IMG/VR virus record: IMGVR_UViG_3300027906_000165
Coordinates: 1-22,805 of that record
Length of the DNA stretch: 22,805 bases
Direction: 5' to 3' (one strand)
Source of the DNA: a virus
Part shown: positions 15,832 through 19,631 of the stretch, in pieces
Layout: each line of letters begins with the position of its first letter
Position numbering within the stretch: position 1 is the first letter of the stretch
The notes under the pieces: model-generated
Told to the model about the DNA's origin: nothing
What the model saw: the letters and a program-made list of their open reading frames with translations, nothing else
Database searches by the model: none
Position numbers and translations under genes: made by a program

Positions 15832-16659
15832 TTATGATGAGAATGTTAATGTTGCTGCTCCGTTAGTAATTACTTCTTCTGTTCCACCAGCAGAGTTGAT
15901 CTTAACTCTATAGTTTTGACCATCTAAGGTATCACCACCAAGTGATGCATACGTAAGTGTTGCTGTTGTGAAGTCAGAGTAAGTAATACCTGTGTCAAGG
16001 TTAGCAGTGACGTTAACCCAACGCTTACCAGATGCAGTTTGACGCTGCCACTGATATGTGAGAGTTCCAGGTGTACCAGTTGTACTTGTAGTAACTGCAA
16101 ATGTACCACCACCAGAACTAGAAGCAGAGTTAGCGGGTTGACCAGTTATAGTTACAGCAGATGCAACATCAGCTGCAATTGTATCATCAGCAAGGTCACC
16201 AGATACACTAGATGCAACTGTGACTGCTGCTATACATTCTGCTTTATGGCGTGTGTTACCAGCATGATCCGTAAAGGAACGATACTGCCACCAGCCAGGT
16301 CCGTTTATACCACGTGATTTGTTCTCAGCAAGAGAACCTTCTGTTGCGTCAGCAAACACAAGGTCATAACTGTTACTATCACCACCCAGTATAACGAATT
16401 CCGCAACTGCTCTTGGAGGTGTACGCTTGATTACTTTAGCAGCAGCAAGAGTATTATTAGTAGCTCCTGCATATACTTTGTGTAATTCAATACTTGTTGT
16501 ACTTGTTATAGTCTTAACGATGTAATTAACACCATCAATTTCAAGTACATCACCACCAACTACTGTGTCGGCAGCGTTCTTTGTTACTGTTGCGTCGTTT
16601 TGAGTGACAGCAACTGTGTTTGAGAATGCAGCAGCATCCGTAGTTCCAAAAACAGCCAT
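15832..16659 (-). CDS. Virion structural protein with Ig-like domain
   Basis: A 275-residue protein starting MAVFGTTDAAAFSNTVAV. The N-terminal part has small beta-rich modules (GGDVLEIDGVNYIVKTI). The C-terminal part (about 165-275) looks like an Ig-like fold: VTITGQPANSASSSGGG, then LTYQWQRQTASGKRW and YRVKINSAGGTEEVI, with strands ending in ATLTF. Ig-like domains are common on phage capsids and tails, where they aid weak attachment to carbohydrate or cell surfaces; T4 Hoc is an example. AGGAAAAAAAG precedes the ATG, and a perfect TATAAATA late box lies 35 bp upstream. I call it a structural or decoration protein; its place on the virion is not known. Confidence 0.75.
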   Translation of the reverse strand: MAVFGTTDAAAFSNTVAVTQNDATVTKNAADTVVGGDVLEIDGVNYIVKTITSTTSIELHKVYAGATNNTLAAAKVIKRTPPRAVAEFVILGGDSNSYDLVFADATEGSLAENKSRGINGPGWWQYRSFTDHAGNTRHKAECIAAVTVASSVSGDLADDTIAADVASAVTITGQPANSASSSGGGTFAVTTSTTGTPGTLTYQWQRQTASGKRWVNVTANLDTGITYSDFTTATLTYASLGGDTLDGQNYRVKINSAGGTEEVITNGAATLTFSS

Positions 16660-16693: not shown

Positions 16694-16701
16694 TATTTAT
16701 A
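16694..16701 (-). promoter_or_regulatory. T4-type late promoter TATAAATA
   Basis: A perfect match to the T4 late consensus on the minus strand, 35 bp before the ATG of the Ig-like virion protein. Transcription should start near 16688, giving a leader of about 29 nt that contains AGGA. It lies in the 45-bp gap after the preceding gene. Confidence 0.75.
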
Positions 16702-16704
16702 ATC

Positions 16705-16893
16705 TTAAGACTCTAGTAACGCCTTTGCTACAGCAGCAACTAGTTCATCATCTAGTTTATTCTCTGTTTTAGCAGCTGCTTTCTTAAGCAACTTAATTAC
16801 AAAATCTTTTATTACTGAGTCTAAGTCATCAGGTATCTTATCAACTGCTTTGTTGATGATACTGATCGCGATAGGCATTAAAAAATTAATCAT
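16705..16893 (-). CDS. Small amphipathic helical protein
   Basis: A 62-residue protein (MINFLMPIAISIINKAVDKI, then DFVIKLLKKAAAKTENKLDD, ending VAKALLES). The N-terminus is hydrophobic and the rest is made of amphipathic helices with many Ala, Lys and Leu. It could be a minor virion component or a membrane-active peptide; the N-terminal 15 residues are short for a full membrane span. It sits between two late boxes and has its own CATAAATA 22 bp upstream, so late expression is likely. There is no clear Shine-Dalgarno sequence, and a five-codon frame starting at 16903 overlaps its start codon. Function unknown. Confidence 0.6.
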   Translation of the reverse strand: MINFLMPIAISIINKAVDKIPDDLDSVIKDFVIKLLKKAAAKTENKLDDELVAAVAKALLES

Positions 16894-16913: not shown

Positions 16914-17111
16914 TTATTTATGCAACGATTCAGATCCACCTATAGCAAACGGATTGTACTTAGCCGTAGCAATCTGATACATCTTTTCATGCATTGTATC
17001 CTCTATTGTATCAGGTATTGTACCTTTGTCTGTTGCAACAGGCATACTATCATGTGGATGAGGTACATCATCAAACCATTCATCAAGTGGTAGTCTGTGT
17101 AGTGGTTTCAT
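16914..17111 (-). CDS. Small protein of unknown function
   Basis: A 65-residue protein (MKPLHRLPLDEWFDDVPHPH, then TIPDTIEDTMHEKMYQIATA, ending GGSESLHK). It is rich in His, Pro and Asp at the N-terminus and likely helical in the middle. I recognise no domain. Its ATG overlaps the stop of the capsid-targeting-like peptide gene as ATGA, and the gene is the last of three behind the late promoter at 17639-17646, so late expression and a virion or assembly role are plausible. Confidence 0.55.
   Translation of the reverse strand: MKPLHRLPLDEWFDDVPHPHDSMPVATDKGTIPDTIEDTMHEKMYQIATAKYNPFAIGGSESLHK
16915..16922 (-). promoter_or_regulatory. T4-type late promoter box CATAAATA
   Basis: The minus strand reads CATAAATA, overlapping the 3' end of the upstream gene and 22 bp before the ATG at 16893. 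The expected start near 16909 gives a short leader of about 15 nt without an obvious Shine-Dalgarno sequence. Confidence 0.55.
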
Positions 17112-17248
17112 CCTGAGTTGTCTGGTTTAGTGGTCATACCCTTCTCTCCATCACGAATAGTAGGCATAACCTCCACAGTGGGCTTGCGTTTCTCTTTCTT
17201 CTCTTTCTTCTTTTTAGATTCCTCTAGGAATTGAGAGTAGGATTTCAT
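17108..17248 (-). CDS. 46-residue basic peptide with capsid-targeting-like N-terminus
   Basis: A short gene, open from the ATG at 17248 to TGA at 17108, with ATGA overlaps at both ends and AAAGGG before the start. It begins MKSYSQFLEE, followed by SKKKKEKKEKRK and a 24-residue tail ending KPDNSG. The first ten residues closely resemble the T4 capsid-targeting sequence of internal protein I (MKTYQEFIAE). LEE-S fits the known gp21 prohead protease rule (Leu or Ile, any residue, Glu, then cut). The remaining 36 residues are very basic, as expected for a protein packed with DNA. It lies behind a perfect late promoter. I infer a packaged internal protein, possibly injected; the gene call is good, the role inferred. 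Confidence 0.6.
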   Translation of the reverse strand: MKSYSQFLEESKKKKEKKEKRKPTVEVMPTIRDGEKGMTTKPDNSG

Positions 17249-17619
17249 TTCTTATACCCTTTCTTCCAACCTTTTCCTTTAATCTTTTCTATAACGTATG
17301 TCTCACCATTTAATTCATACTCTTCTCTTTCTTCAACTTCTTCTTCTACCTGAACTTCAGCAGGTGCAGTCTCATTCTTACCAAGATAAGCTCCTTTCTT
17401 TATTTCTTTCTTCTTCTTTGTAACATCTTCTATCTCTGCACCATTAGACTGAGGATCCATTCCAGCGAAAGGTTCTTCTGCTAATGTATCAGCAGATGGC
17501 ATTTCAGTTCCTTGGAAAGTATCACCCTCCATCCAATTCTCATACATCTTCATGAGATTCTTTGCATACTCATCCTCAAACTGGACAGTATTAACAGGAT
17601 CTTGGTACTTCATCGTCAT
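17245..17619 (-). CDS. Charged protein of unknown function, first gene after a late promoter
   Basis: A 124-residue protein from the ATG at 17619 (MTMKYQDPVNTVQFEDEYAK); another ATG is at 17613 and a TTG in frame at 17634. The N-terminal 50 residues are probably helical (NLMKMYENWMEG). The middle is acidic with a KKKKEIKKG patch. The C-terminus has a short beta-like motif, YELNGETYVIEKIKGKGWKK. I recognise no family. A perfect TATAAATA lies 20-27 bp before the chosen ATG, which predicts a start near 17633 and argues against the TTG. It overlaps the next gene as ATGA. Late expression suggests a virion or assembly protein. Confidence 0.65.
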   Translation of the reverse strand: MTMKYQDPVNTVQFEDEYAKNLMKMYENWMEGDTFQGTEMPSADTLAEEPFAGMDPQSNGAEIEDVTKKKKEIKKGAYLGKNETAPAEVQVEEEVEEREEYELNGETYVIEKIKGKGWKKGYKK

Positions 17620-17630
17620 TTTATTACTTA

Positions 17631-17843
17631 TCAATTTCTATTTATAGCTCTAATATCCTTTACCCATGCACGAAACATATCACCATCCTCAGTGACACAA
17701 ATAACATAGTTAACACCTGACCTATGGATCTTACCTTTCTGTCCTGTATTAGCATTCATTACATAGTCACCTTCAACAAACACTTCCTTCTTACGGTAGT
17801 GCTGTCGTAGTGCTTGTTCACGTAGTTTCTTAAAGTCCTTCAT
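17631..17843 (-). CDS. Small protein with KOW/SH3-like core
   Basis: A 70-residue protein. A basic N-terminal helix (MKDFKKLREQALRQHYRKKE) is followed by a beta-rich part, EGDYVMNANTGQKGKIHRSG, then NYVICVTEDGDMFRAWVKDI. The GD-V...G..GKI..G.NY pattern resembles KOW or SH3-like small barrels that bind nucleic acid or protein. I recall the WVKDI type ending in small proteins near the nucleotidyltransferase of related phages. Its start overlaps the nucleotidyltransferase stop by 4 bp as ATGA. Function unknown; the fold is suggested by pattern only. Confidence 0.65.
   Translation of the reverse strand: MKDFKKLREQALRQHYRKKEVFVEGDYVMNANTGQKGKIHRSGVNYVICVTEDGDMFRAWVKDIRAINRN
17639..17646 (-). promoter_or_regulatory. 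T4-type late promoter TATAAATA
   Basis: A perfect late consensus on the minus strand, placed inside the last codons of the upstream KOW-like gene. It should start RNA near 17633 and drive the three small overlapping genes down to 16914, including the capsid-targeting-like peptide. Confidence 0.7.
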
Positions 17844-18424
17844 TTTTTACCCATACCTTTTCTTATTTCTATCATGAGTTGAAGTTTATCTGCTTTAGTA
17901 AGAGTGTCTGGTATACCTTCCATAAAACCTTTAACATTTTTATCTAATGCATGTGCTCTCATTTTACTAGCAGAGACACCAGAAACATCATTATCATTAT
18001 CAGGATCACGTTCTCCTGCTGACTTAACCTCTATGCCTCTAAAAGCATATTCTACCTTCTTATCAGGATCTTTGGGGTCCATGTTATATTTTTTTAACAT
18101 TGTATCAAATCCATTAACTCTATCAGATCCAACAACCAAACAAACATCAGTGTAATCACCTTGAAATGACTGCATTACTTTAATAATTATATTAATATCT
18201 TTAGTAGAATAGATATTCTTAGCATGTGTAGGAAATATCTTATGCATCCACTTCAGTTTACTATCAATATCTAAAGGGTTCTTCTTTGCATCATGAGATC
18301 TAGTTGGTATTATAGCATAGTCATCCTTACCTGCTTCTTTAGCAACAGCTTCTATAAGTTTTAAGTGTCCTATAGTTGGTGGATTAAATCTACCCCATGT
18401 AAAGACAATACGTTTACGATCCAT
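17840..18424 (-). CDS. Nucleotidyltransferase (NMN adenylyltransferase/cytidylyltransferase-like)
   Basis: A 194-residue protein from the ATG at 18424 (MDRKRIVFTWGRFNPPTIGH). It carries the nucleotide-binding signature of the nucleotidyltransferase alpha/beta-phosphodiesterase superfamily: GRFNPPTIGH (11-20, T/HxxH type), VVGSDRV (97-103), and VSASKMR (150-156) in the place of the ISSTxxR motif. Family members transfer NMP to phosphate-bearing substrates such as NMN or phosphopantetheine. NAD salvage is a plausible role but the substrate cannot be told by eye. The frame extends to 18451, but the ATG at 18424 directly precedes the signature strand. It overlaps the KxDG gene by 11 bp, so the two may act on linked chemistry. 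Confidence 0.8.
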   Translation of the reverse strand: MDRKRIVFTWGRFNPPTIGHLKLIEAVAKEAGKDDYAIIPTRSHDAKKNPLDIDSKLKWMHKIFPTHAKNIYSTKDINIIIKVMQSFQGDYTDVCLVVGSDRVNGFDTMLKKYNMDPKDPDKKVEYAFRGIEVKSAGERDPDNDNDVSGVSASKMRAHALDKNVKGFMEGIPDTLTKADKLQLMIEIRKGMGKK

Positions 18425-19631
18425 CACCGTCCACCCAATCCTTAGAAACATTAAAGTTAGCCTTAGAGAACTCTAATCTATCAACTAACTTAATAGCATT
18501 GTTTCCATCAGCAATAGCAACATATCCTTCGGGTGCTGTTATTTTATAACCTGTATCTGTCTTCAAATAAGTTCCAAACCTTTCACCTTTCTCAAGCTTA
18601 CGAATGAAAACTTCTTTTGATGATTGCAATATCTTATACAACTCAGCTGTATTCTTCAAAGAATCTAAATTATCTTCTATTAACTGAACTCCAGCATATA
18701 ATTTGGCTAACTTGGATGCTTTTGCTTTTGGTGTCTTAACTTTATCTGCTGCTTTCTTTACTTCTCCTTCAAAATAACTAGTAAATTCTTTAACAAACTT
18801 TGTTGTATCAGGAATCTTTCTACCTTCACGAACATACTTATTAAAAAATATTTTCAATCTAGGTCCAAGAGTTAACTGATCCTTTGCTTCTATTTGCTTT
18901 GCCATTTCATCTAAAAAATCACCAGAACTAGTAAGAATCTGTGTACATTTAGTTTTTAATCTAACAAGAGAAGATCTTTCTGAGTTAGTTAATAGAATAT
19001 CTTTTCCTAATTGTCCTGTCTCTGCACTAAGAACCAAAGCATCCTTAGAATCTTTCAACTTTGAAACATCAAATCCAAACGAGGCACTTAAATTTTCAAT
19101 AGTATTACCATGATAGGTAGTATGAAACACTACTCCTATTTTTGCATTCTTTGCTTTATCATATAAATCATCATCTTTTGATATAGCATATGTAATTGTG
19201 TTTGGTTGGAATGTAATAGATGTTTTACCTCCAATAGTCTGTGTCTTTTTATCATTAGTGAATAAAAGATCTCCTTGTACAACTCCTTCGATACCAAGAG
19301 CAGGAAGATATGCCAACGCTGCCTTTAATTTTTCTACAAGACCAGGAGCATGACCATGATTTCTATCAATATCTTCTGGTGTAAAATTAACCTTCGCATC
19401 CTTATTAAAAATAGATTTAGTACCAACAAAGAACTTACCTAGACCAGGATATATCCCACAAAATACAGCAGGAGCACCATCCCATTTAGTAGTAATCTTA
19501 AATGAATTTGAACCTTTGCCACTAAAGGTACTAGCAAGCAAATCCAAAAAGACAAACGCATCCTTAGCACCCTTCTTACCGTCAAGTAGGATGCTATCTT
19601 CTAAATGTTCTAGGTGTGTGTTCTTACTCAT
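18414..19631 (-). CDS. KxDG-motif protein, DUF6267-like, possibly a ligase-type nucleotidyltransferase
   Basis: A 405-residue protein. Its N-terminal half has motifs like those of covalent nucleotidyltransferases (DNA/RNA ligases, capping enzymes): KITTKWDGAPAVF with KxDG at Lys49-Gly52, a following FFVGTKS strand (about 68-73), GVVQGDLLFT (116-125) in the place of motif III, and IGVVFHTTYHG (165-175) as a possible motif IV region. The C-terminal half (about 215-405) is helical and lysine-rich. I recall related T4-like phage proteins annotated DUF6267. The ligase relation is suggested by motif order only. It overlaps the nucleotidyltransferase gene downstream and the 588-residue gene upstream (ATGA at 19628-19631). 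Confidence 0.75.
   Translation of the reverse strand: MSKNTHLEHLEDSILLDGKKGAKDAFVFLDLLASTFSGKGSNSFKITTKWDGAPAVFCGIYPGLGKFFVGTKSIFNKDAKVNFTPEDIDRNHGHAPGLVEKLKAALAYLPALGIEGVVQGDLLFTNDKKTQTIGGKTSITFQPNTITYAISKDDDLYDKAKNAKIGVVFHTTYHGNTIENLSASFGFDVSKLKDSKDALVLSAETGQLGKDILLTNSERSSLVRLKTKCTQILTSSGDFLDEMAKQIEAKDQLTLGPRLKIFFNKYVREGRKIPDTTKFVKEFTSYFEGEVKKAADKVKTPKAKASKLAKLYAGVQLIEDNLDSLKNTAELYKILQSSKEVFIRKLEKGERFGTYLKTDTGYKITAPEGYVAIADGNNAIKLVDRLEFSKANFNVSKDWVDGDGS

Follow-up and report, generated by a model that had tools for sequence, protein, structure and literature searches.

The locus considered here raises the question of what a 46-codon gene contributes to a phage when its product opens with a decapeptide resembling the capsid-targeting sequence (CTS) of the T4 internal proteins. 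The window, a stretch of viral DNA of 22,805 nt analysed over its whole length, carries this frame on the minus strand, at the positions 17108-17248 given in the sequence-only reading. The frame starts with ATG and translates as MKSYSQFLEESKKKKEKKEKRKPTVEVMPTIRDGEKGMTTKPDNSG (46 aa), that is, MKSYSQFLEE followed by SKKKKEKKEKRKPTVEVMPTIRDGEKGMTTKPDNSG, with the predicted protease cut between the two. Codons 1-10 (17219-17248, minus strand) were assigned as a T4-type CTS on the basis of score rank, the residues singled out in PMC9026906 and a helix in the AlphaFold model; codons 11-22 (SKKKKEKKEKRK; 17183-17218, minus strand) form, by sequence and composition, the Lys-rich start of the predicted mature peptide, and codons 25-38 (VEVMPTIRDGEKGM; 17135-17176, minus strand) a conserved core delineated by residues invariant in 76 relatives and by pN/pS. 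The predicted mature 36-mer contains 10 Lys, 2 Arg, 4 Glu and 2 Asp; with a net charge of +6 and a pI of about 10, it is strongly rather than "extremely" basic, as it had been described, and compatible with DNA binding. A Pfam search of the ORF gave no match, and PADLOC recognised neither the ORF nor its neighbours; since PADLOC models defence systems, the latter result is uninformative on anti-defence. With about 170 relatives, a fixed gene order and purifying selection, ORF 17108-17248 is a real gene, which we annotate by reading frame, relatives and synteny as a probable CTS-tagged internal head peptide of the phrog_12887 family.

The gene is embedded in a series of genes, on the minus strand where coordinates are given here, in the order DUF6267 protein (T4-GC71; 18414-19631, domain match), cytidyltransferase (PF01467, orthologous group T4-GC190; 17840-18451, domain match), a 70-aa protein (17631-17843), phrog_4359 (17245-17634, profile match and synteny), the ORF, (a 65-aa protein, 16914-17111), a 62-aa protein in the T4-GC424 position (phrog_402; 16705-16893, profile match and synteny), a head protein (phrog_613; 15832-16659, profile match), DUF7207, phrog_4187 and gp61. 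This order is kept in the 13 loci examined, a few of which have single genes missing while some are cut by contig ends. The ATGA overlaps noted earlier on both flanks are present: the stop of the preceding gene overlaps the ORF start at 17245-17248, and the ORF stop the start of the 65-aa frame at 17108-17111. The perfect sequence behind which the ORF was said to lie also exists, TATAAATA at 17639-17646 (minus strand), but it stands about 390 nt upstream of the ORF, ahead of the gene before it; with this putative T4-type late promoter, the two genes would form a two-cistron unit in which the ORF comes second. A second TATAAATA precedes the head protein gene at 16694-16701, and the two copies in the window are not above chance expectation (2.56). 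Of 13 relatives, 12 retain the copy ahead of these two genes; late expression of the unit from this element is putative. As to the 70-aa neighbour, it and its homologues are named "ribonucleotide reductase subunit" in several records, a name that looks wrong, as the similarity of the protein is to the C-terminal portion of cytidyltransferase (phrog_4808/395). Its start, MKDFKKLREQA, was considered as a further CTS (MKDFKKLRE) and rejected, because its counterpart in the fused enzyme lies in the interior of that protein; the window's own cytidyltransferase is devoid of a CTS tag.

In T4, the first ten residues of IPIII are enough for packaging, with CTS residues 4 and 7 mattering in targeting and residues 8 and 10 in cutting (PMC9026906). 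We scored all ATG starts that open frames of 38 codons or more, with T4 IPII/IPIII and 61.1 as the only references and with weight on positions 4, 7, 8 and 10. The ORF ranked first among the window's 225 ATG starts (score 47; runner-up 21) and has an aromatic residue at position 4 and Phe at position 7 (Y4, F7); together with the retention of the motif in its relatives (76/76, see below), this bears out the proposed closeness of MKSYSQFLEE to the T4 internal-protein CTS. When the T4 genome was scored, the top four of 1662 starts were IPIII, IPII, 61.1 and a 95-aa frame at 73878, taken to be IPI as a 19-residue propeptide would leave the 76 residues of PMC3012670; three of these four are training sequences, and independent recovery is confined to the IPI-like frame. 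Fifth was T4 thymidylate synthase (td; MKQYQDLIKD, score 36), apparently a chance false positive. Among five whole cyanophage genomes the operon of the ORF was first in four, represented by the ORF ortholog in S-RSM4 (46 versus 28) and, narrowly, in S-MbCM7 (31 versus 29), and by the operon's cytidyltransferase in Syn9 and P-SSM4 (41 and 46). Scoring of the P-HM2 genome gave no clear CTS match, and the P-HM2 gene in the ORF's position is without the N-terminal tag.

The ORF matches the phrog_12887 profile with an E value of 8e-12 and shares its gene neighbourhood (13 loci). Two scans of IMG/VR yielded about 170 relatives each, in mostly identical sets. A tblastn search with the 46-mer alone picked up the core region only, in Synechococcus myoviruses, and conservation of the N-terminus became visible only on reading the syntenic genes: those of S-CAM4, Sf-CH1b, S-MbCM7, S-RSM4 and S-H9-1 all open with MK[ST]F[KN]Q[FL]RE[ED], followed by a Lys-rich stretch and, after it, VEVMPxxxDGxxGM. 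The S-CAM4 annotation (KU686202) starts at an internal Met (149969) and misses the CTS MKTFKQLRED, which starts at 149855. The CTS pattern is kept in 76 of 76 distinct relatives, with F/Y at position 4 in 75 of them, F/L at position 7 in all, and the core residues E, P, D, G, G and M invariant throughout, in a set that was gathered by the core pattern and leaves out divergent forms such as that of P-HM2. Over 90 distinct DNA sequences, pN/pS was 0.20 for the N-terminal decamer and 0.16 for the core. The N-terminal match is beyond chance because all 76 relatives keep the motif and the CTS codons have a pN/pS of 0.20; a motif not conserved in related phages, which would have spoken against the original proposal, was looked for here and not encountered.

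With respect to proteolysis, gp21 cuts after L/I-X-E (PMC9026906), and LEE|S in the ORF matches this rule, with a small residue after the [L/I]-X-E, predicting a cut after codon 10. Cyanophage gp23 proteins aligned to T4 gp23 read LTE|T, LTE|A, INE|A, LNE|T or MNE|A at the cleavage position, and the gp21 cleavage rule appears to be common to T4 and cyanophages. No gp21 gene is found among the genes of the 22.8-kb window fragment; gp21 (PF03420) is encoded in five of five near-complete relatives. The short-form subfamily, to which the window's ORF belongs, mostly keeps [LI]xE|[SGA], with starts such as MKSLKDFIAE|S, MKSFNDFLAE|G and MKSFKDFIIE|G (ends LEE|S, IIE|G, IAE|S, LAE|G); one small short-form branch, MKTFQEFNEA, does not fit the rule. 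Arg at position 8, carried by most long-form relatives (55 of 76), and Asp at position 10, carried by some, break the rule. Because most long-form relatives carry R8, cutting after residue 10 is doubtful there, while targeting is likely. The gp21-type cut after LEE put forward by the sequence-only reading is thus sustained by the motif of the short-form subfamily but not by most long-form relatives.

Published virion proteomics of related cyanophages bears on whether such tagged proteins reach the head. In S-SM1, the T4-GC190 cytidyltransferase was found in virions by mass spectrometry (PMC3037559), and this protein (S-SM1_190) starts with MKKFSAFLNE|A. For S-CREM2, 52 virion proteins out of about 219 have been reported (PMC10665884); the top-scoring annotated starts in this phage, those of the gp154 cytidylyltransferase (MKNFSSFLTE|A), the gp6 SAM hydrolase, the gp14 kinase (GTG start) and gp136, are all four in the published virion list (P=0.003, or 0.0004 with structural proteins set aside). 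In S-SCSM1, NMNAT (SSCSM1_91; start MKSFLQFLKE|A) and SSCSM1_93 are virion proteins (PMC9602691 and record annotation). The latter, 69 aa long, occupies the ORF's slot directly before GC424 and corresponds to the DUF3008-like cassette of long-form relatives (one of them, L098, is 77% identical to it over 56 aa), having slot and cassette in common with the family while being without the VEVMP core; its C-terminus KRTFKEFLEYIE echoes the tag. The name DUF3008 for the cassette of SSCSM1_93 and the long-form relatives is one that we presume to apply. In CsCl preparations abundant enzymes could be contaminants, and the choice between cargo and contamination was left open (PMC10665884, PMC9602691); the tag argues for these enzymes being cargo. 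Capsid targeting of the ORF product is well supported by the CTS ranking, the conservation of residues 4 and 7 and the mass spectrometry of virions for operon relatives. Two further S-CREM2 proteins deserve mention: gp12 (OR473000, 7704-10313, minus strand), annotated as Cas9 and detected in virions, shows the CTS-like stretch LRFASFMAE|A close to the N-terminus as annotated, and gp155, with YVDVMPN and a K-rich stretch roughly in place, was considered as a family member and rejected, the profile comparison being not significant (probability 2%).

To what extent the tag is used beyond this operon was approached with a strict CTS DNA pattern, which matched at least 120 loci in viral contigs versus 2 for scrambled codons, the matched set being a non-random sample. 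At residue 11, which the pattern leaves unconstrained, 69 of the 118 unique frames among the matches listed have Ala or Ser (about 15% expected), a count that includes related sequences, such that a nominal P value overstates the effect; we read this excess as the mark of a protease site. Among the matches listed, gp21 (PF03420) is present in 10 of 31 strict-pattern contigs, among them all that reach 80 kb, whereas the eight control contigs, which are mostly short, had none; a second control pattern gave six contigs, too few for a firm gp21 baseline. The tagged proteins among the matches listed include PHROG internal head and internal virion proteins, cytidyltransferases, GNAT, DUF5661, SAM lyase (PF23780, nine), ART-PolyVal and a zeta-type kinase. 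Several proteins that carry a perfect T4 CTS and are strongly basic (on contigs L287, L238, L329, L223, L230 and others) match S-AdoMet_lyase (PF23780), and this CTS-tagged family is a candidate for packaged anti-restriction enzymes. CTS-tagged ART-PolyVal, zeta-toxin-like kinase and cytidyltransferase genes were seen in viral contigs, at L273:6037-6813, L247:2990-3670 and L284:4563-5243. A second copy of the tag stands at the C-terminus in L038, L109, L174, SSCSM1_93 and S-SM2_163 (TLLTFKQFMSKL..., KRTFKEFLEYIE, KTLKEFLENI), which suggests targeting from either protein end.

We lean towards a view in which the CTS would be a general loading tag of T4-like phages, cyanophages included, carrying modular enzyme cargo (cytidylyltransferase/NMNAT, SAM lyase, kinase, ADP-ribosyltransferase), possibly at either end; the window operon would then be a conserved internal-protein island and the 46-aa gene its bare, cargo-less form. 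No earlier description of the T4 CTS in cyanophages was found in the papers searched, with most subscription papers lying outside the search. SAM hydrolase, NMNAT/cytidylyltransferase and kinases recur in cyanophage virions as either cargo or contaminants (PMC10665884, PMC9602691), and the tag offers a mechanism for their presence; it also permits genome-based prediction of proteins that ride in the head and are perhaps the first to enter the host.

For the ORF itself, we consider it quite likely that a marine T4-like phage, related to the Kyanoviridae, encodes in it a minimal internal head protein, rich in lysine, made from a late operon of internal proteins and probably DNA-bound. Late in infection, the ORF would be translated in coupling to the preceding gene; the N-terminal helix (residues 1-10, the CTS) would bind the gp22-type prohead core, allowing the peptide to enter the prohead, where a gp21-type protease would cut after Glu10 (LEE|S) and free the 36-residue Lys-rich peptide. 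The latter probably remains on the DNA inside the head and may leave together with it at ejection. For the ORF peptide itself, packaging and cutting are what we infer from the relatives and the tag, and it is probably packed with DNA and freed by the head protease. T4 internal proteins have been observed to touch DNA phosphates only through lysine (PMC3012670), and by analogy the Lys-rich stretch would fit such lysine-DNA contacts. The DNA-condensing role suggested at the outset is a plausible candidate; our guess is that the peptide neutralises charge or organises the DNA and that the VEVMP..DG..GM core serves it as a binding motif. Two likenesses of the core were given up: as a gp23 N-arm mimic, in the manner of T4 61.1, it showed no likeness by eye, and its MPT[IV], likened to the repeated DPMP[ST]V of some cyanophage gp22 proteins, is too short for use.

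A role in assembly is a possible, if clearly less probable, alternative: the tag would bring the peptide into the prohead as an accessory of the scaffold (core), where it would aid core assembly or head sizing and then be mostly lost at maturation, like the T4 gp67/gp68 fragments. The conserved core and the fixed synteny would suit such a function, some cyanophage gp22 N-termini are CTS-like (NEKFEEFVTE|Q, DEKFKKVIAE|S), and head assembly is slowed in IPIII mutants (PMC9026906); yet the Lys-rich mature part is closer to DNA-bound internal proteins than to acidic core peptides such as gp67. We judge it unlikely that the peptide is injected to counter host defence in the manner of T4 IPI, IPII and IPIII, the candidacy voiced in the earlier reading. 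Type IV restriction enzymes are indeed blocked by T4 Ip1-3 (PMC12373910), and SAM lyase and ADP-ribosyltransferase domains occur on tagged proteins elsewhere, but the T4 proteins are hypervariable and mutually unrelated, whereas the ORF core hardly varies and keeps its synteny in diverse phages, a strictness of core and gene order that speaks against an arms-race role and favours a structural or DNA-organising one. Instead of the folded, phage-variable inhibitor domain of Ip1-3, the AlphaFold model of the ORF product has a single helix (residues 4-16) and nothing else (mean pLDDT 70, pTM 0.24), which makes an IPI-like folded inhibitor unlikely. Least probable, and improbable in itself, is a chance N-terminal likeness of a cytoplasmic factor such as a nucleic-acid-binding regulator: loose CTS matches do arise by chance (T4 td) and nucleic-acid binding is general among Lys-rich peptides, but the CTS ranking, operon clustering, P1' signature, S-CREM2 and S-SCSM1 proteomics and late-promoter position all argue against it.

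The internal head protein that we favour finds close parallels in T4. IPI, IPII and IPIII share with the ORF a CTS of the form MK[TS][YF]xxF..., Glu at the predicted cut and a small basic mature part; they differ in length (95-193 aa versus 46), in being hypervariable where the ORF core is conserved and syntenic, and in the IPI fold that is not predicted for the ORF. T4 gp61.1 (54 aa, adjoining gene 61) is likewise tiny and Lys/Glu-rich, starts with the CTS MKTFKEFIKE and lies close to the primase gene 61, but its mature part resembles the gp23* N-arm, whereas the ORF has the VEVMP core. In gp61.1 (NC_000866, 18966-19130, minus strand; our L017), the 28 residues after the CTS match the mature gp23 N-terminus in register from the cleavage site, with 14 of 28 identical and none of 200,000 shuffles as good. 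Cyanophage genes near gp61 are also short gp23 N-arm copies (GFTG..AxGPxAGYDPLM), namely S-SCSM1_97 (L350, 43122-43307), S-CREM2 gp160 (L346, 33342-34235), Syn9 gp190 and S-SM1_197; two of these copies are virion proteins detected by mass spectrometry. The T4-GC190 cytidylyltransferase/NMNAT proteins (S-SM1_190, SSCSM1_91, S-CREM2 gp154) have operon and tag in common with the ORF and have been detected in virions, but represent large enzyme cargo. The members of PHROG 12887 (S-RSM4 SRSM4_060, S-MbCM7_157, Sf-CH1b_175) are direct homologues, with operon slot, N-terminal pattern and core as in the ORF; in contrast to the latter, they are mostly longer mosaics with GPLYAP, DUF3008-like and YERMVKHIKK cassettes and a C-terminal TFKQF repeat, and in them R8 replaces L/I.
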